Positions 12,765 through 55,139 of a stretch of DNA of 55,979 nt are shown here, piece after piece. Below the pieces are notes generated by a model. It was given only the letters and a program-made list of their open reading frames with translations, was not told the origin of the DNA and did no database searches. The stretch comes from an uncultured Alistipes sp. Its GTDB lineage: Bacteria > Bacteroidota > Bacteroidia > Bacteroidales > Rikenellaceae. Position numbers and translations under genes: made by a program. Location: contig CALUNE010000014.1 of the NCBI GenBank assembly GCA_944321945.1, forward strand, positions 1-55,979, in the 5' to 3' direction. Each line of letters starts with the position of its first letter. Position 1 is the first letter of the stretch.

Positions 12765-12837
12765 GCCTCTTTAGCTCAGTTGGTAGAGCACGACACTCTT
12801 AATGTTGGGGTCCAGGGTTCGAGCCCCTGAGGGGGTA
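12765..12837 (+). tRNA. tRNA-Lys (anticodon CTT)
   Basis: A 73-nt cloverleaf. The acceptor GCCTCTT pairs with AGGGGGT (three G-U pairs). The D arm is GCTC...GAGC, the anticodon stem CGACA/TGTTG closes the loop CTCTTAA with anticodon CTT, and the T arm is CAGGG-TTCGAGC-CCCTG. CCA is not encoded. The anticodon reads AAG. Confidence 0.95.
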
Positions 12838-12936: not shown

Positions 12937-13009
12937 GCCTCTTTAGCTCAGTTGGTAGAGCACGACACTCTTAATGTTGGGGTCCAGGGTTCGAGCCCCT
13001 GAGGGGGTA
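12937..13009 (+). tRNA. tRNA-Lys (anticodon CTT), second copy
   Basis: Identical over its 73 nt to the copy at 12765-12837. The preceding leader bases (ATTGATGCC context) are also conserved, while the promoter and terminator sequences differ, so the duplication is not recent over its whole length. CCA is not encoded. Confidence 0.95.
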
Positions 13010-15475: not shown

Positions 15476-15712
15476 GTTGATTCTGCTTTTTTAAGGATAA
15501 AACTTCGAAATCGGTTGGTCTCCGAACAGGCCGCCAGGACGAAGTGCTGCGGCAGGTTCCGCGCCCGGAGTCAGTCTCCGGAACAGTGCCGCGCAAAGCG
15601 GTCCGGAGAGGGCGGATTCCCGGGTCGGAATCGATTCGGAGAGTTGTTTTTCGGTAAATATCCGCTCCGGCAGCCTGGGCCGGGATGCATGCGACAATGC
15701 GACGGATGATGA

Positions 15713-15901
15713 CTACAGGACCCCCACAGGGGTGGTACCGGTGACGGTAAAGGAGGTCGTACCGACGGTCAGGCGACCGACGGTGAAAACACCATGCAGC
15801 AGAGCAACGAAGCATTCGTTCCCCCGAGCCTCCGATCCGCGAAATTCGACGGCGGATCCGTACCCGTTCACATGAGCCGTATGGTTTCTCAGACGATCCA
15901 T
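15713..15901 (-). CDS. Small threonine-rich ORF, possible thr leader peptide
   Basis: A 62-codon frame between the thr promoter and thrB. Its last 24 codons contain eight threonines (TVGRLTVGTTSFTVTGTTPV), the composition expected of an attenuation leader for a threonine operon. The first 38 codons are unremarkable. If transcription starts from the mapped -7 box, the ATG at 15901 is only about 7 nt from it, so translation would be leaderless or begin at an internal GTG/TTG. Downstream, 15571-15610 folds into a strong TCTCCGGA...TCCGGAGA hairpin without a T run. No clear terminator/antiterminator pair was found, so the regulatory role is an inference. Confidence 0.35.
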   Translation of the reverse strand: MDRLRNHTAHVNGYGSAVEFRGSEARGNECFVALLHGVFTVGRLTVGTTSFTVTGTTPVGVL

Positions 15902-15907
15902 CGAGGG

Positions 15908-15938
15908 CAAATATAAAACAAATATTTTAATAATCCAA
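15908..15938 (-). promoter_or_regulatory. Leftward promoter for thrBC
   Basis: On the minus strand TTG (15938-15936), 20 bp, then TATATTTG (15915-15908): a perfect Bacteroidota promoter. It faces thrB across a 430-bp leader. From here to 16219 the DNA is AT-rich with no supported gene. Confidence 0.75.
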
Positions 15939-16219
15939 GAGCCGGTAACAATTTGTAAGCATTTTTCAAGCACAAAACAGAGCATACCTTATATATGGAT
16001 GTATAACAAGGATTTTCGGAGGCATGAAAGCCAAAAAATCGAAAGTCCAAAACCGGGTCACATCCGCCGAATGGAGGCAGGACCCAAAAGTCGCTCCAAA
16101 CCGTCCCGAACCGCCTTGCAAATCATAATTTAAATACCTCTTATTTTTACAGTTTGTAAAGACAAATTGCAGAATTCAGTTTCGGATCATTATATTATTA
16201 AATTTTTTTAGGAAATTTC

Positions 16220-16250
16220 TTGCTCGTTTCATCCACATTTCCTATCTTTG
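16220..16250 (+). promoter_or_regulatory. Promoter of the ilv operon
   Basis: TTG (16220-16222), 20 bp, then TATCTTTG (16243-16250). Transcription should begin about 16256, some 20 nt before the leader peptide. Confidence 0.85.
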
Positions 16251-16276
16251 CTACACAACCAAAGAAATTGTAAGGC

Positions 16277-16363
16277 ATGACTGCCCTGAATCATTCGAAT
16301 CTCGTCATTAACGTCATTAACGTGCTGCTCGTGGTCAATAACAGGATAACGGGAGGAAGGTGA
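16277..16363 (+). CDS. ilv operon leader peptide
   Basis: A 28-codon frame starting MTAL and containing [12 protein letters not shown]: 12 of its 28 residues are Ile, Val or Leu, and 11 of these fall in codons 9-24. This is the signature of a branched-chain amino acid attenuation leader (compare the E. coli ilv leader, which also begins MTAL). It is preceded by TTGTAAGGC and ends TGA at 16361-16363. Its last codons (GGA GGA AGG) form one arm of the antiterminator, so ribosome position directly decides the fold. It is too short to be a functional protein. Confidence 0.85.
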
Positions 16364-16424
16364 CGTACCTGATCGAAGCATATCGAGAACCTTTCTCCCG
16401 CCCCGGAGAAAGGTTCTTTCGTTT
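16351..16424 (+). promoter_or_regulatory. Transcription attenuator of the ilv operon
   Basis: Two exclusive folds are visible. The antiterminator pairs GGGAGGAAGGT (16351-16361) with ACCTTTCTCCC (16389-16399), 11 bp with a single G-U. The terminator pairs GAACCTTTCTCC (16387-16398) with GGAGAAAGGTTC (16405-16416) and is followed by TTTCGTTT. Both use the same central arm. Ribosome stalling at the Ile/Val/Leu codons would leave 16351-16361 free and favour read-through; a ribosome at the leader stop codon would cover it and favour termination. Confidence 0.85.
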
Positions 16425-16451
16425 CAGAGCCCACCCTGTCGAATCGCAAAC

Positions 16452-18329
16452 ATGGAACCGCACATGGAACCGCAACAGATGAAACACCCACTCAGAAGCG
16501 CCGTCACCCTCACGGGACGACGCATGGCCGGAGCCCGGAGCCTCTGGCGTGCCAACGGCATGCGCGAAGAGCAGTTCGGACGCCCCGTCATCGGCATCGC
16601 CAACTCCTTCACACAATTCGTCCCCGGCCACGTCCACCTGCACCAGGTCGGCCAACTGGTCAAACAACGCATCGAAAGCCTCGGCTGTTTTGCCGCCGAA
16701 TTCGACACGATCGCTATCGATGACGGCATCGCCATGGGCCACGACGGCATGCTCTACTCGCTCCCCTCGCGCGAAATCATCGCCGACAGCGTCGAATACA
16801 TGGCCAACGCCCACAAGATCGATGCCCTGGTCTGCATCTCGAACTGCGACAAGATCACCCCCGGCATGCTGATGGCCGCCATGCGGCTCAATCTGCCGAC
16901 GATCTTCGTCTCGGGCGGACCGATGGAGGCCGGACGCCTTGGCAACCGGGCCCTCGACCTGATCGATGCCATGGTCATGTCGGCCGACGCGAAATATTCG
17001 GACGAGGAGATCGCCGGAGTCGAACGTGCCGCATGCCCCGGATGCGGCTCCTGCTCGGGGATGTTCACCGCCAATTCGATGAACTGTCTGACCGAGGCGC
17101 TGGGACTTTCACTGCCGGGCAACGGGACGATCGTCGCCACGCACGCCAACCGCCGACAGTTGTTCGAGGATGCCGCCGCACTGATCGTCCGCAATGCCGA
17201 ACGCTACTACTTCGAGGGTGACGAGCGCGTCCTGCCCCGCTCGATCGCCACGAAGGCCGCCTTCGAAAACGCCATGTCACTCGACATCGCCATGGGCGGT
17301 TCGACCAACACGGTGCTGCATCTGCTGGCCGTGGCCCACGAGGCGGAAGTCGACTTCACGATGCAGGACATCGACCGCCTCTCGCGCCGTGTGCCGGTGC
17401 TCTGCAAGGTGGCCCCCAACTCGCATTATCACATTCAGGATGTCAACCGCGCCGGCGGCATCCTCTCGATCCTCGGCGAACTCAACCGCGGCGGGCTGCT
17501 CGACACGACGGTCTGGCGCGTCGACGGACGCACACTGGGCGATGCCATCGCCGCCTGCGACCTGCTCTCGCCGACGGTCACCGATGCCGCACGGCGCCGT
17601 TCGCTGAGTGCCCCGGCCGGCCACTACAGCCGCGAAATGGGGTCGCAGCACTGCTACTACGAGGCTCCCGACACGGACCGTGCGGAGGGCTGCATCCGCG
17701 ACCTGGACCACGCCTACTTCCGCGACGGCGGACTGGCCGTGCTGACGGGCAACATCGCCCGCTCGGGATGCGTCGTCAAGACGGCCGGCGTCGACCAAAG
17801 TCTCTTCGTCTTCCGCGGCCGGGCCCGCGTCTACGAGTCGCAGGAACAGGCCATGAACGGCATTCTCGCCGACGAGGTGCAGCCCGGCGAGGTAGTCGTC
17901 ATCCGCTACGAAGGCCCGAAGGGCGGCCCCGGCATGCAGGAGATGCTCTACCCGACATCGTACCTCAAGTCGAAGCATCTGGACAAACTCTGCGCACTGA
18001 TCACCGACGGACGCTTCTCGGGCGGCACGTCGGGCCTCTCGATCGGACACATCTCGCCGGAAGCCGCCGCCGGTGGCGAAATCGCCATCGTGCAGACGGG
18101 TGACGAGATCGAAATCGACATTCCGAAACGTTCGATCCGGCTGCTGGTCGACGACTCGGAGATCGCCTCGCGCATGGCCGCACGGCACCGCTTCCGCCCC
18201 GAGGCCCGCGACCGTCAGGTGCCGCGTTCGCTGCAGGCCTACGCCCGGCTGGTCAGCTCGGCCGACCGCGGCGCCGTACGGATCCTCGACGACGAAACCC
18301 AAGAAACGGATCATCGATGCCAAAAATGA
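16452..18329 (+). CDS. ilvD: Dihydroxy-acid dehydratase
   Basis: Fe-S enzyme that dehydrates 2,3-dihydroxy-isovalerate and -3-methylvalerate to the 2-oxoacids, the third step of Val/Ile synthesis. Motifs: [16 protein letters not shown] near the start, cluster cysteines in [13 protein letters not shown] and [20 protein letters not shown], the phosphate-binding [12 protein letters not shown], and the C-terminal [21 protein letters not shown]. This is the long E. coli-like form, about 615-625 residues. Three close in-frame ATGs exist (16452, 16464, 16479); the last, [13 protein letters not shown], best matches the family start. It is the first structural gene after the attenuator and overlaps ilvB by 13 bp. 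Confidence 0.96.
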
Positions 18330-20065
18330 ATGCTGCCATGAATACTTCCTCCAGCGAAGCCCGACAAACGGTCGACGGCCCCCGAATGACGGGCTCGCAG
18401 GCCCTGCTCGAATCGTTTCTGATCGAGGGCGTCGACACCCTCTTCGGCTACCCCGGCGGCGCCATCATCCCGGTCTACGACGCACTGTACGACTACCGCG
18501 ACCGGCTGCGCCACATCCTGGTGCGCCACGAACAGGGAGCCGTCCACGCCGCCCAGGGCTATGCCCGCGTCAGCGGACGCGTTGGGGTCTGTCTGGTCAC
18601 CTCGGGACCCGGCGCCACGAACACCGTCACGGGGCTGGCCGACGCCCTGATGGACTCCACACCGCTGGTACTGGTCACCGGACAGGTCGGCTCCGAACTG
18701 CTCGGCACCGACGCCTTCCAGGAGACCAATTTCGTCGGCATCACGCAGGCCGTCACCAAATGGAACTGCCAGGTCAAACGCACCGAGGATATTCCGGCCG
18801 CCATGGCCAAGGCCTTCTACGTGGCCCGCTCGGGACGCCCCGGACCGGTGGTCGTCGACATCACGAAGGATGCCCAGTGCGGCACGGCACCGTTCCACTA
18901 CGAAAAAATCGCATCGATCCGCAGCTACGTACCCGTTCCGGAGCCCGACCCGGAGTGCATCGAGGAGGCCGCCCGGCTGATCGACAGCGCACGGCGCCCG
19001 CTGGTGATGGTCGGACAGGGTGTCATCCTCGGGAATGCCGAGACCGCCCTGCGGGCCTTTCTCGACAAGAGCGGCATGCCCGTCGCCTCGACCCTGCTGG
19101 GGCTGTCGGCCGTACCGACCGACGATCCGCAATACGTCGGCATGCTCGGCATGCACGGCAACTACGGTCCCAACATCCGCAACCGCGAGTGCGACCTGAT
19201 CGTCGCCGTCGGGATGCGGTTCGACGACCGCGTGACGGGTTCCCCGAAGCATTTCGGCGAGCATGCCAAGGTCATCCACCTGGAGATCGACCCCGCGGAG
19301 ATCGGCAAGATCATCCCGGCCGACGTCCCCGTGGCGGGCGACGTGCGCGAGACGCTGCCGATGCTGACCCGGCTCATCCACCGCCGCGACCATAGCGACT
19401 GGATCGCGGGATTCCGCGCCTGCGACCGCATCGAAGAGGAGCGCATCATCCGGCCGGCCCTGCACCCCGCCGGCGGCCGCATCCACATGGGCGAAGCCGT
19501 GGCGGCAGTGGCCCGCGCCTACGAGAACGACGCCGTGGTGGTCACCGACGTCGGACAGCAGCAGATGTTTGCCGCCCGTTACTTCGGATTCCGTCGCACG
19601 CGCAGCCTGGTCACCTCGGGCGGACTGGGTACGATGGGATTCGGTCTGCCGGCCGCCATCGGGGCCAAACTCGGCGCCCCGGACCGCGACGTGGTGCTCT
19701 TCGTCGGCGACGGCGGTCTGCAGATGACCATTCAGGAGCTGGGCACGATCTTCCAGTCGCGCGTCCCGGTCAAGATCGTCCTGCTGAACAACTCGTTCCT
19801 CGGCATGGTCCGCCAGTGGCAGGAGCTCTTCTACGATTCGCGCTACTCCTTCACCGAACTCACGAACCCCGACTTCGGGATGATCGCCCGCGCCAACGGA
19901 CTCTCCTACCGCTGTGTCGAACGCCGCGAGGAGCTGGACGACGCCGTGGCCGAAATGAAGGCCGCAGAGGGCGCCTCGCTGCTCGAGGTGCGTGTCGAAC
20001 ACCAGGAAAACGTCTTCCCGATGGTGCCCGCCGGAGCCCCCGTCTCGGAAATCAGGTTCGAATAA
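18317..20065 (+). CDS. ilvB: Acetolactate synthase large subunit
   Basis: ThDP-dependent catalytic subunit that condenses pyruvate with pyruvate or 2-oxobutyrate, the first step of branched-chain synthesis. Visible: [15 protein letters not shown], the ThDP glutamate in [26 protein letters not shown], the FAD region, and the ThDP/Mg motif [18 protein letters not shown]...LLNN. The 582 residues are normal. The frame opens at 18317 inside ilvD, and an alternative ATG lies at 18338 (MNTSSSEA), past the ilvD stop; family alignment would favour the later one. The gene for its regulatory subunit follows after 12 bp. Confidence 0.96.
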
Positions 20066-20077
20066 ACACCCCCAACC

Positions 20078-20629
20078 ATGGAAACGGAACAGGAATACAT
20101 CATCACCGTATTTTCGGAAAACAAGGTCGGTCTGCTGAGCCAGATCACCACGGTCTTCACCTGCCGGAACGTCAACATCGAAAGTCTGACCACCTCGGAA
20201 TCGGCCCTGCAGGGGATCCACAAGTTCACGATCGTCGTGCGCACCACGCCCGAAACGGTCGAAAAGATCGTGCGGCAGGTCGAAAAGAAGATCGACGTGC
20301 TGAAGACCTTCGTCTACACCGCCGACGAAGTCGTCCAGCAGGAGATCGCCCTCTACAAGGTGACGCGCAGCAGCAGCGTCGAGCAGCTCGTCCGCCAGCA
20401 CAACGTCCGCATCCTGGAGGTCGACACCGACTACATCGTCGTCGAAAAGACCGGACACAAGGAGGAAACCCAGGCGCTGTTCCGGCTGTTGCAGCCCTAC
20501 GGCGTACAGCAGTTCGTGCGCAGCGGCACGGTGGCCGTCATCAAGTCGCGGCGCGAGCTGCTGAACGAATACCTCGAGGAGCTCGAAAAGATGCGCCGCC
20601 AGCCGGAACCCGTCCGCACGGGCGCCTGA
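20078..20629 (+). CDS. ilvN: Acetolactate synthase small (regulatory) subunit
   Basis: Regulatory subunit that raises the activity of IlvB and gives feedback inhibition by valine. The N-terminal ACT domain is clear (YIITVFSENKVGLLSQITTVF followed by RNVNIESLTTSES and IHKFTIVV), and the C-terminal half has the family's EIALYKVT and VEKTGHKEETQALFRLLQPYGVQQFVRSG. The 183 residues are typical of the two-domain form. The symbol could equally be ilvH. A 135-bp gap with no clear signal separates it from ilvC. Confidence 0.94.
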   Translation: METEQEYIITVFSENKVGLLSQITTVFTCRNVNIESLTTSESALQGIHKFTIVVRTTPETVEKIVRQVEKKIDVLKTFVYTADEVVQQEIALYKVTRSSSVEQLVRQHNVRILEVDTDYIVVEKTGHKEETQALFRLLQPYGVQQFVRSGTVAVIKSRRELLNEYLEELEKMRRQPEPVRTGA

Positions 20630-20764: not shown

Positions 20765-21811
20765 ATGGCAAAGATCAATTTCGGCGGCGTCGAGGAGAAC
20801 GTCGTCACACGCGAGGAGTTCCCGCTGGAGAAGGCGCTCGAAACACTCAAGGACGAAACTATCGCCGTCATCGGCTACGGCGTGCAGGGCCCCGGGCAGT
20901 CGCTCAACCTGCGCGACAACGGCTTCCGCGTCATCGTCGGCCAGCGCAAGGGAACGAAGAGCTGGGACAAGGCCGTCGCCGACGGATGGGTGCCGGGCGA
21001 GACGCTCTTCGAGATCGAAGAGGCCGCCCAGCGCGGTACGATCATCCAGTACCTGCTCTCGGATGCCGGCCAGATCGCCGTGTGGCCCACCATCAAGAAG
21101 CACCTCACCCCGGGCAAGGCCCTCTACTTCTCGCACGGATTCGGCATCACCTACAAGGACCGCACGGGAATCGTCCCGCCGGCCGACGTCGACGTCATCC
21201 TGATCGCCCCGAAGGGCTCGGGCACCTCGCTGCGGCGGATGTTCCTCCAGGGCCGCGGCCTGAACTCGAGCTACGCCGTCTTCCAGGATGCCACGGGCCG
21301 CGCCATGGACCGCGTCATTGCACTCGGCATCGGCGTCGGATCGGGCTATCTGTTCGAGACCGACTTCCAGCGCGAGGTCTACTCCGACCTGACGGGCGAA
21401 CGCGGTACGCTGATGGGCGCCATCCAGGGCATCTTCGCCGCCCAGTACGACACGCTGCGCGCCCACGGGCACACCCCCTCGGAGGCCTTCAACGAGACCA
21501 TTGAGGAGCTGACGCAGTCGCTCATGCCGCTGGTGGCCGAAAACGGCATGGACTGGATGTATGCCAACTGCTCGACCACGGCCCAGCGCGGTGCTCTGGA
21601 CTGGTGGAAACGCTTCCGCGACGCCACCAAACCCGTCTTCGAGGAGCTCTACGAGAGCGTCCGCAGCGGCAACGAGGCCCAGATCTCGATCGACGCCAAC
21701 AGCAAGCCCGACTACCGCACGAAACTCAACGAGGAGCTGCGCGAAATGCGCGAAAGCGAAATGTGGCAGGCCGGCGCCGTCGTCCGCAAACTCCGTCCCG
21801 AAAACAACTGA
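20765..21811 (+). CDS. ilvC: Ketol-acid reductoisomerase
   Basis: Second step of Val/Ile synthesis: alkyl migration and NADPH-dependent reduction of acetolactate or acetohydroxybutyrate. The Rossmann motif GYGVQGPGQSLNLRDNG (residues 38-53) is followed by the cofactor loop VGQRKGTKSW (about 58-67), whose Arg/Lys residues point to NADPH. The catalytic domain has LIAPKGSGTSLR, GVGSGYLFETDFQREVYSDLTGERG and ETIEELTQSLMPLVAENGMDWMYANCSTTAQRGALDW. The 348 residues are near the class I length of about 335. It is expressed with the rest of the ilv operon. Confidence 0.96.
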   Translation: MAKINFGGVEENVVTREEFPLEKALETLKDETIAVIGYGVQGPGQSLNLRDNGFRVIVGQRKGTKSWDKAVADGWVPGETLFEIEEAAQRGTIIQYLLSDAGQIAVWPTIKKHLTPGKALYFSHGFGITYKDRTGIVPPADVDVILIAPKGSGTSLRRMFLQGRGLNSSYAVFQDATGRAMDRVIALGIGVGSGYLFETDFQREVYSDLTGERGTLMGAIQGIFAAQYDTLRAHGHTPSEAFNETIEELTQSLMPLVAENGMDWMYANCSTTAQRGALDWWKRFRDATKPVFEELYESVRSGNEAQISIDANSKPDYRTKLNEELREMRESEMWQAGAVVRKLRPENN

Positions 21812-21847: not shown

Positions 21848-23524
21848 ATGTGTGGATTCGTTGGATTGTTCGACATCCGGCAGCAGTCGGATGCGCTGCG
21901 CACCCAGGTGCTGAAAATGTCGAAACAGATTCGCCACCGCGGTCCCGACTGGTCGGGCATCTATTGCGGTCCGCGGGCCATTCTGGCACACGAACGTCTC
22001 TCGATCGTCGACCCGCAGTCGGGCCGGCAACCCCTGTACAGCCGTGACGGGAAGCTCGTGCTAGCCGTTAACGGCGAGATCTACAACCATCGCGAGATCC
22101 GCGCCGAACTGGCCTCGGAGTACGACTTCATGACCGGCTCCGACTGCGAGGTGATCCTGCCCCTCTACCGCAAGATGGGGCTCGGACTGCTCGAAAAGAT
22201 CAGCGGCATCTTCGCCTTCGCCCTCTACGACATCGAACGCGACGAGTATCTGATCGCCCGCGACCCGATCGGCGTCATCCCGCTCTACATCGGCTGGAAC
22301 CGCGACGAACAGTTCTACGTCGCCTCGGAGCTGAAGGCCCTCGAAGGGGTCTGCACGACGATCCAGCCCTTCCTGCCGGGCCACTACTGGTCGTCGAAGG
22401 AGGGTCGGATGGTGCGCTGGTACCGCCGCGACTGGTTCGACTACGACGCCGTGAAGGAGAACAAGACCGACATCGCCCAGCTCCGCACGGCACTCGAGGA
22501 GGCCGTCCGCCGGCAGCTGATGTCCGACGTGCCGTACGGCGTACTGCTCTCGGGCGGTCTCGATTCGTCGATCATCTCGGCCGTGGCCAAGAAGTTCGCC
22601 GACCGCCGTATCGAAAGCGGAGGCCGCGATGCCGCCTGGTGGCCGCAGCTGCACTCGTTCGCCGTGGGTCTCGAAGGTTCGCCCGACCTGGCCGCCGCCC
22701 GCAAGGTCGCCGAACACATCGGCACCGTCCACCACGAGATCCACTACACGATCCAGGAGGGCCTGGACGCCATCCGCGACGTGATCTACTACATCGAAAC
22801 CTACGACGTGACCACGGTCCGCGCCTCGACGCCGATGTATCTGCTGGCCCGCGTCATCAAGTCGATGGGTATCAAGATGGTCCTCTCGGGCGAGGGGGCC
22901 GACGAGATCTTCGGCGGCTACCTCTACTTCCACAAGGCCCCCGACGCCCGGGCCTTCCACGAGGAGACCGTGCGCAAGATCGGCCGGCTGCACCTCTACG
23001 ACTGCCTGCGGGCCAACAAGTCGCTCGCAGCCTGGGGCGTCGAGGGTCGCGTGCCGTTCCTCGACAAGGAGTTTCTCGACGTGGCCATGCGCCTCAACCC
23101 GGCCGACAAGATGGCCGGAAACGGCCGCATCGAAAAGTGGGTGCTGCGCAAGGCCTTCGAAGACATGCTGCCCGAGGAGATCGTCTGGCGCCAGAAGGAG
23201 CAATTCTCCGACGGCGTGGGCTACGGGTGGATCGACACCCTGAAGCGGATCACCTCCGAAGCCGTCTCCGACCGCGAAATGGAGCATGCCGCCGAGCGTT
23301 TCCCGATCAACCCGCCCCAAAACAAGGAGGAGTACTACTACCGGACGATCTTTGAGGAGCACTTCCCGTCGCAGACCGCCGCAGCCTGTGTGCCGTCGGT
23401 GCCGTCGGTGGCCTGCAGCACGGCCGAAGCCCTGGCCTGGGACCAGTCGTTCGCCAACTGCAACGACCCCTCGGGGCGCGCCGTCCTCGGCGTCCACAAC
23501 ACCGATCTTTCGCACAAGATCTGA
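21848..23524 (+). CDS. asnB: Asparagine synthase B (glutamine-hydrolysing)
   Basis: Makes asparagine from aspartate, glutamine and ATP in the cytosol. The start is fixed by the catalytic Cys2 (MCGFVGLFD). The glutaminase domain (about 1-200) shows RHRGPDWSG, HERLSIVDP and NGEIYNHREIR. The synthetase domain (about 210-558) shows the PP-loop LLSGGLDSSI and LSGEGADEIFGGYLYF. The 558 residues are typical of AsnB. It starts 36 bp after ilvC with no terminator between, so it should share the branched-chain attenuator. A strong terminator follows it. Confidence 0.95.
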   Translation: MCGFVGLFDIRQQSDALRTQVLKMSKQIRHRGPDWSGIYCGPRAILAHERLSIVDPQSGRQPLYSRDGKLVLAVNGEIYNHREIRAELASEYDFMTGSDCEVILPLYRKMGLGLLEKISGIFAFALYDIERDEYLIARDPIGVIPLYIGWNRDEQFYVASELKALEGVCTTIQPFLPGHYWSSKEGRMVRWYRRDWFDYDAVKENKTDIAQLRTALEEAVRRQLMSDVPYGVLLSGGLDSSIISAVAKKFADRRIESGGRDAAWWPQLHSFAVGLEGSPDLAAARKVAEHIGTVHHEIHYTIQEGLDAIRDVIYYIETYDVTTVRASTPMYLLARVIKSMGIKMVLSGEGADEIFGGYLYFHKAPDARAFHEETVRKIGRLHLYDCLRANKSLAAWGVEGRVPFLDKEFLDVAMRLNPADKMAGNGRIEKWVLRKAFEDMLPEEIVWRQKEQFSDGVGYGWIDTLKRITSEAVSDREMEHAAERFPINPPQNKEEYYYRTIFEEHFPSQTAAACVPSVPSVACSTAEALAWDQSFANCNDPSGRAVLGVHNTDLSHKI

Positions 23525-54778: not shown

Positions 54779-54929
54779 AACCTCTTTTCAGCCATCTTCC
54801 ATCTCCCCCCCCCTTGCTCGCAATGCCGCTCAACCATTTGTCGTGGCTTACCGACGAAAGCCGCCTCGCAACGATGCTCCGTTCTCCGCAGATGCATCCG
54901 AAAAAAGATTCAATTCCCTTGTGGAAAAT

Positions 54930-55106
54930 CGAAAGGCAGGTCTTCTGGCTCATCCCAATTGCAACGCCTTCCCGGTCCTCGGGACCAGTGGCCAAAGCGT
55001 GTTGCAACCTCATCAGGGGACTTACAGCAGCGGGAACTGCTGCCGATTTTCACGGCATTCCCTTTTCATCACGCGGGGTCTTGCCCGACCCTTTGTGAAC
55101 CTTTCG
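54930..55106 (-). ncRNA. Cobalamin (AdoCbl-type) riboswitch
   Basis: On the minus strand the conserved core elements occur in order: AAAAGGGAA (55066-55058), the CCCGCTGCTGTAAG segment, GCCACTGG (54992-54985), GGGAAGGCG, and the B12 box GAGCCAGAAGACCTGCC (54951-54935). The closing helix P1 pairs CGAAAGG (55106-55100) with CCTTTCG (54936-54930). A -7 box TAACTTTG (55118-55111) lies just before it. The aptamer precedes the DUF4465 lipoprotein gene and a terminator, so expression should fall when cobalamin is plentiful. Confidence 0.93.
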
Positions 55107-55110
55107 GATG

Positions 55111-55139
55111 CAAAGTTAGAAAATAAATTCGTATCTTTG
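55111..55139. promoter_or_regulatory. Divergent promoters for riboswitch transcript and fabD
   Basis: Minus-strand TAACTTTG (55118-55111) begins the riboswitch transcript; plus-strand TATCTTTG (55132-55139) precedes fabD by 28 bp. The two -7 boxes lie 13 bp apart, so the promoters overlap. Clear -33 elements are not visible. Confidence 0.65.

Follow-up and report, generated by a model that had tools for sequence, protein, structure and literature searches.

The ilv locus and its upstream region

The window, that is, the whole 55,979-nt stretch of DNA analysed, carries on its plus strand four genes of branched-chain amino acid (BCAA) synthesis, ilvD, ilvB, ilvN and ilvC, preceded by a short leader open reading frame (ORF) and a set of mutually complementary segments. 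The genome is that of an Alistipes-like gut bacterium; the closest named relative of the ilvD product belongs to an uncultured Alistipes (97% identical). On the same strand, asnB (asparagine synthase B, 21848-23524) begins 36 nt past ilvC and may belong to the same transcript as the ilv genes. The parts, with the evidence for each, are as follows.

16219..16250, plus strand: probable Bacteroidota-type promoter (CTTG at 16219-16222, TATCTTTG at 16243-16250)
16277..16363, plus strand: leader ORF, stop included (ATG 16277-16279, TGA 16361-16363, 28 sense codons)
16294..16319, plus strand: putative arm 1, TTCGAATCTCGTCATTAACGTCATTA, with 16358-16387 as its proposed partner
16301..16336, plus strand: predicted control codons, codons 9-20 of the leader (sequence, codon bias in the leaders of relatives, footprint model)
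16351..16361, plus strand: arm 2, the 5' arm of the antiterminator, GGGAGGAAGGT, overlapping the end of the leader ORF
16358..16387, plus strand: spacer together with the 3' end of arm 2, with which arm 1 is proposed to pair
16387..16399, plus strand: arm 3, common to antiterminator and terminator (read in the sequence; pairing change in relatives)
16405..16421, plus strand: arm 4 (itself 16405-16416) and the start of an imperfect U-tract
16452..18329, plus strand: ilvD, dihydroxy-acid dehydratase, the first gene under the proposed control (NCBIfam NF009103 and TIGR00110, above cut-off)
18317..20065, plus strand: ilvB, acetolactate synthase large subunit (TIGR00118, above cut-off)
20078..20629, plus strand: ilvN, acetolactate synthase small subunit (TIGR00119, above cut-off)
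20765..21811, plus strand: ilvC, ketol-acid reductoisomerase (TIGR00465, above cut-off)

An earlier, sequence-only reading of this DNA had described a 28-codon leader, an 11-bp antiterminator and a 12-bp terminator at these positions, and direct reading confirmed all three. In the antiterminator (2:3), GGGAGGAAGGT (16351-16361) pairs with ACCTTTCTCCC (16389-16399) over 11 bp including one G-U; in the terminator (3:4), GAACCTTTCTCC (16387-16398) pairs with GGAGAAAGGTTC (16405-16416) over 12 bp around the loop CGCCCC. Both helices use arm 3 and are thus mutually exclusive, the competition for one arm that had been claimed. The 5' arm of the antiterminator had been described as the last three sense codons plus the first base of the stop; these do belong to it, together with the last base of codon 25.

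At the control codons, 10 of 12 residues are Ile, Leu or Val (I/L/V). Among the 444 ATG-started ORFs of 12-40 aa on both strands of the whole window, the leader is the sole one with at least 9 I/L/V in 12 residues. The terminator hairpin folds with -22.1 kcal/mol (z -5.71 against 200 shuffles) and is followed by an imperfect U-tract, UUUCGUUUC; a consensus terminator scan that requires 5 T in 8 did not pick up the hairpin. Bacteroidota promoters have the consensus TTTG / TAnnTTTG, and the promoter claimed earlier finds probable boxes of this type upstream of the leader. The -7-type box TATCTTTG stands 34 nt 5' of the leader ATG, with an identical box and spacing in the related locus L001 and, by eye, boxes resembling it in relatives. 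A sigma-70-type promoter scan gave no site at the leader and listed one unrelated site.

Conservation of the leader and arms in Bacteroidales

We compared the upstream DNA of 80 named loci encoding ilvD relatives, scoring the presence of a leader in which 6 or more of 10 codons specify I/L/V, together with arms 2, 3 and 4. Leader and three arms were present in 73 of these loci, in addition to the window (for L019, the upstream one of two attenuator copies was taken). No I/L/V leader was seen in five (L051, L060, L069, L075 and L078), and the remaining two (L041 and L046) showed by eye a divergent leader-like ORF and hairpin that fail the test.

In an order-wide draw, ilvD was matched in 69 of 148 genomes, the own genome included, and 62 of the 64 long matches besides the own one were used as an order-level sample. 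Leaders were present at 52 of these 62 places (11.4 expected in shuffles) and leader plus arms at 51 (3.9 expected), of which at least five look by eye like chance arm matches (L111, L121, L138, L139 and L143); at the other 11 places leader plus arms were not found. At least two places occur in both sets (L089 and L102 appear to share their contigs with L017 and L072), so the named and order-level counts are not independent; a later count used 99 non-redundant loci. At 38 hand-picked places outside the order, leader and arms occurred in 4 of 18 from the class (0.95 expected) and in 4 of 20 from the phylum (0.6 expected).

Apart from their richness in I/L/V, the leader sequences vary widely between loci. 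Across 83 aligned loci, four consecutive T columns 3' of arm 4 are at least 90% conserved. This comparison suggests that the attenuator is common to much of Bacteroidales.

Covariation of the two competing helices

For the alignment, L019, L079 and the order-level loci L093, L111, L121, L136, L138, L139, L143 and L150 were left out at selection. From the 93 selected loci, ten with a shifted register or odd arms were removed by hand (L040, L043, L050, L058, L072, L105, L125, L145, L146 and L148), giving 83 aligned loci. In the 2:3 helix, 92.4% of cells are paired; two-sided change was found in 8 of 11 pairs (equalled in 2 of 500 shuffles) and in 57 cells, against 17.4 in shuffles (reached in 0 of 500). 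Sliding the 2:3 partners abolishes this signal. In the 3:4 helix, 93.6% of cells are paired, with two-sided change in 11 of 12 pairs and in 86 cells against 27.9 (0 of 500 shuffles).

Because pairing had guided the choice of loci and ten of them had been removed, the count was repeated on the 93 and on the 99 loci. With all 93 kept, two-sided change in 2:3 extends to 9 of 11 pairs and 42 cells, against 9.6. The 99-locus set was picked by leader and 3:4 only, arm 2 not being used; there, 2:3 is 87.6% paired, with two-sided change in 10 of 11 pairs (1 of 200 shuffles) and in 93 cells against 37.8 (0 of 200 shuffles).

The first locus search had demanded 7 of 8 pairs, which makes it circular for pairing; the 99-locus set and an alignment-free test of arm 2 answer that. 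The latter began with 143 upstream regions, of which 15 lacked a leader and 13 with a leader, L017 among them, were missed by the strict 3:4 search, leaving 115 loci. The arm-2 match beat shuffles at p<=0.05 in 84 of these and did not in 31; it also passed at 20 of the 37 loci whose arm 3 is unlike the common sequence. These p values are indications only, because the shuffles keep relatedness and the 143 regions contain some duplicates. The comparison with relatives that had been proposed as a check has thus been run, and leader and both pairings are kept in Bacteroidales with compensatory change. The element is real and, on this comparative evidence, very probably functional.

A possible arm 1

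A third pairing, absent from the earlier reading, is proposed here: early leader codons would be able to form a helix with the spacer and the adjoining 3' end of arm 2. Among 55 representatives of 74 loci, the 1:2 duplex has a mean of -14.8 kcal/mol; shuffling the spacers weakens this to -12.7 (Wilcoxon p 9e-5) and exchanging them between loci to -11.9 (p 8e-8), neither p value being corrected for relatedness. Taken singly, 13 of the 55 loci reach p<=0.05, and the exact 1:2 pairs vary from species to species. The duplex in the window has -16.7 kcal/mol, no better than shuffles (p 0.535). A 1:2 helix is thus likely for the family, and the window alone gives it no support.

Ribosome position, alternative folds and codon choice

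We modelled the ribosome footprint in 115 of 125 loci, ten being left out by name, and placed its edge 13 nt beyond the first base of the A-site codon. In this model, a ribosome stalled at a control codon leaves arm 2 free in at least half of the cases at every one of the 115 loci, and a ribosome on the stop codon covers half or more of arm 2 at 113 of 115. Both hold together in 113 of 115 loci, against 53% for a random position of arm 2 in the interval searched (74 loci). With a stalled ribosome and the polymerase just past arm 3, the 2:3 helix reaches a predicted probability of 0.5 or more at 101 of 115 loci (0.99 in the window); with the ribosome on the stop, the same is predicted for 3:4 in 111 of 115 (0.997 in the window). 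At equilibrium, the terminator wins over the antiterminator even with a stalled ribosome (P 0.99 versus 0.005 in the window, medians 0.87 versus 0.08), so the antiterminator would have to act kinetically, by forming first.

The control codons of 55 loci differ in usage from the ilvD genes behind them. ATT makes up 77% of Ile control codons versus 34% in ilvD (per-locus p 1e-9), GTC 56% of Val codons versus 25% (per-locus p 2e-8) and, in pooled counts only, CTA 18% of Leu codons versus 4%; Leu CTC showed no bias. Such biased control codons are what the theory of selective charging describes for E. coli (PMC1183508).

Related elements before other genes

A covariance model, R1, was built from the ilvD attenuator alignment, partly from order genomes that were later searched with it. 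In the window it gave one strong match, of 62.5 bits, and two others of about 10 bits, which is chance level. At E<=0.001, R1 finds a match in 120 of 247 order genomes; some of these are sources of the model and some perhaps plain terminators, a doubt that the weak order-wide matches share. Among 150 matches listed, at least 24 sit away from the known ilvD place of the same genome. We inspected 20 sites, 18 of those 24 and two others, judging the next gene from its protein start: it was leuA at 16, ilvB at one and gltB at three. Family searches of four such genes placed two leuA and one ilvB above cut-off, and the partial gltB of L234 matched glutamate synthase below cut-off. At the three gltB-like sites (L226, L234 and L237), the short ORFs show no enrichment in Glu or Gln and, for the most part, none in I/L/V.

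Two loci (L017 and L019) have two complete BCAA attenuators in tandem before ilvD, and the 150 matches listed include at least five pairs of same-strand matches no more than 400 nt apart, of which one is probably L017. Outside the order, leaders such as MKTSTKNIISVVVVVS with similar arms precede a gene that by eye resembles acetolactate synthase at three loci (L249, L250 and L252), all from one genus of a different order in the class. The class-wide R1 tally of 73/197 was rejected as evidence of spread: many matches lie below 45 bits, and in G652, G744 and G464 the matches cover both strands and overlap, as ordinary terminators do, one of them at 52 bits. A pattern search returned 0 matches and is uninformative, as the pattern fails even on the window's own leader.

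Unlike leuA at the 16 inspected loci of other Bacteroidales, leuA of the own genome (L189) shows no visible BCAA leader. An attenuator before it was therefore rejected: none was seen in L189, and the own genome has one R1 match.

Other leader-like ORFs and RNA elements

Divergent from the ilv attenuator, a Thr-rich leader-like ORF (window 15713-15901, minus strand) ends in LTVGTTSFTVTGTTPVGVL and lies before thrB. This leader type, with up to 12 consecutive Thr and TPVGV near its end, was seen in 14 of 14 loci (L001-L014), and thrB lay downstream in all eight of the sequences displayed. It was not seen at 21 of the 22 loci L015-L036, some with little upstream DNA; the other, L020, has a distant ORF. 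These sequences suggest a second, divergent attenuator at the Thr leader.

The window and 13 loci share a conserved stretch just past the Thr leader (CCGGCCCAGGCTGCCGG with its flanks, window 15647-15745, minus strand). It has no Rfam match except one snoRNA model at chance level and no pair with two-sided change, and a U-tract is mostly missing. A model of this stretch, R2, has matches in 4 of 148 order genomes, among them the own genome. By eye, the Thr leader ends in TPMGV at one match (L243, antisense) and in TPAGV at another (L245), where it precedes an aspartokinase-like gene; L244 looks like chance.

Elsewhere in the own genome (L191:1142, contig C3), a His-rich leader, MMQFIHIHHHHHHFDQGAAIVYGA, is followed by a hairpin that looks by eye like a terminator, with a U-tract, and then by hisG, and a his attenuator is likely there on the sequence. 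The window also holds a cobalamin riboswitch (54918-55119, minus strand) and two tRNA genes with equal scores (12765-12837 and 12937-13009, plus strand).

Comparison with known attenuators

The ilvL attenuator of enteric bacteria has a leader with Leu, Val and Ile codons and alternative antiterminator and terminator structures. The ilvGMEDA operon of E. coli and Salmonella thus resembles the window element in its leader codons, its mutually exclusive helices and the ilv operon downstream; the window element differs in that its first gene is ilvD and its arm 2 overlaps the end of the leader. The leader's MTAL start had been noted as matching the E. coli ilv leader, by chance or convergence. Chance is the best reading, because 3 of 125 leaders have this start (the window, L006 and L014) and near relatives begin with MIAL, MIAS or MNAL, so that the shared MTAL is not kept; on the same count, homology to E. 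coli IlvL was rejected. The ilvGMEDA operon is named among attenuated operons in PMC1183508.

Rfam searches of 15900-16700 at E up to 10 gave no attenuator family and two chance-level matches, to a snoRNA and a miRNA model; at the gathering score, the element was matched neither in the window nor in 17 related loci. The Bacteroid-trp RNA of Bacteroidetes is known as an attenuator. It is listed as a candidate cis-regulatory RNA (RF01692; PMC2864571, Table 1). Its covariance model matches 6 of 99 order genomes, five above cut-off; it has no match in the own genome and none at the gathering score in the window.

Bacteroidetes/Chlorobi are reportedly among the groups with candidate attenuators in the abstract of Vitreschak 2004. 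Flavobacterium psychrophilum belongs to the same phylum as the window organism and to a different order. One study reports 'strong clues' in this species that operons of amino-acid biosynthesis are preceded by leader-peptide attenuators (PMC9723704), a likeness by description, without sequence or operon name. Small ORFs reminiscent of leader peptides are mentioned for B. thetaiotaomicron (PMC7366714). In another phylum, actinobacterial ilv genes have BCAA leader ORFs and terminators upstream, as the window element does (PMC1262725; PMC10272879); changing the candidate regulatory codons of a similar-looking leader before Streptomyces coelicolor ilvB reportedly had no effect (PMC1262725). Among the literature matches listed, whose coverage is partial, none describes an ilvD attenuator in Bacteroidales. 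Earlier publications already point to attenuation in Bacteroidota, and we do not claim the ilvD element as unpublished.

Proposed mechanism and alternatives

We give a probability of roughly 93% to the reading that a classical four-arm, ribosome-mediated transcription attenuator controls the ilvD-ilvB-ilvN-ilvC operon. Comparison or modelling shows the leader, arms 2-4, their covariation and the geometry; we infer where transcription starts, that it terminates, that the ribosome stalls, what arm 1 does and how the switch responds to starvation. With ample Ile, Val and Leu, the ribosome would reach the stop codon and cover arm 2, and the 3:4 terminator would form. When charged Ile-, Val- or Leu-tRNA is scarce, the ribosome would stall at codons 9-20 and occupy arm 1, leaving arm 2 free to pair with newly made arm 3 before arm 4 exists, with read-through into ilvD. 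In the absence of a ribosome, 3:4 would form with the help of 1:2 and transcription would end. This working is that of the enteric amino-acid attenuators, and the mechanism is textbook.

A short ORF followed by a terminator formally makes a complete gene, and the hairpin might then be a plain terminator and the leader an independent small protein gene, with no switching. This is very improbable, as arm 2 is kept in relatives and changes in step with arm 3, the leaders differ widely beyond their richness in I/L/V, and like elements stand before leuA and ilvB. We hold it to be just as improbable that the 2:3/3:4 switch is real and set by a factor other than the ribosome, for example a protein or a tRNA on the leader. 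The three arms alone would suit any such regulator, but the I/L/V leader is conserved, its codons are biased and a terminating ribosome is placed to cover arm 2; moreover, identity as a riboswitch or T-box was rejected, 15900-16700 having no such Rfam match at E up to 10. The ribosome might also set control mainly on translation or Rho-dependent termination and not at the hairpin, to which the imperfect U-tract of the window would lend itself. Against this, the least credible of the three, stand the four consecutive T columns, conserved to at least 90% after arm 4 in the 83 loci, and a 3:4 stem that covaries and folds strongly. The conserved leader and both covarying pairings thus support the interpretation already advanced from the single sequence, a ribosome-dependent attenuator of branched-chain synthesis.

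Implications for Bacteroidales

The lineage is thought to initiate translation largely without Shine-Dalgarno pairing. A broader claim, to which we give slightly better than even odds, is that the window element represents one copy of an RNA regulon spread across the order and unlisted in Rfam, in which ribosome-read attenuators with GAGAAAGG/CCTTTCTC/GAGAAAGG arms and their covarying variants stand before ilvD, leuA or ilvB, sometimes in tandem, in a lineage that initiates in this way. As sequence evolution alone suggests, many Bacteroidales would use the translating ribosome to control the transcription of BCAA genes, and transcription and leader translation must then be well timed there. 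If the order-wide regulon holds true, the timing of the leader ribosome relative to the polymerase in Bacteroidota would become directly testable.
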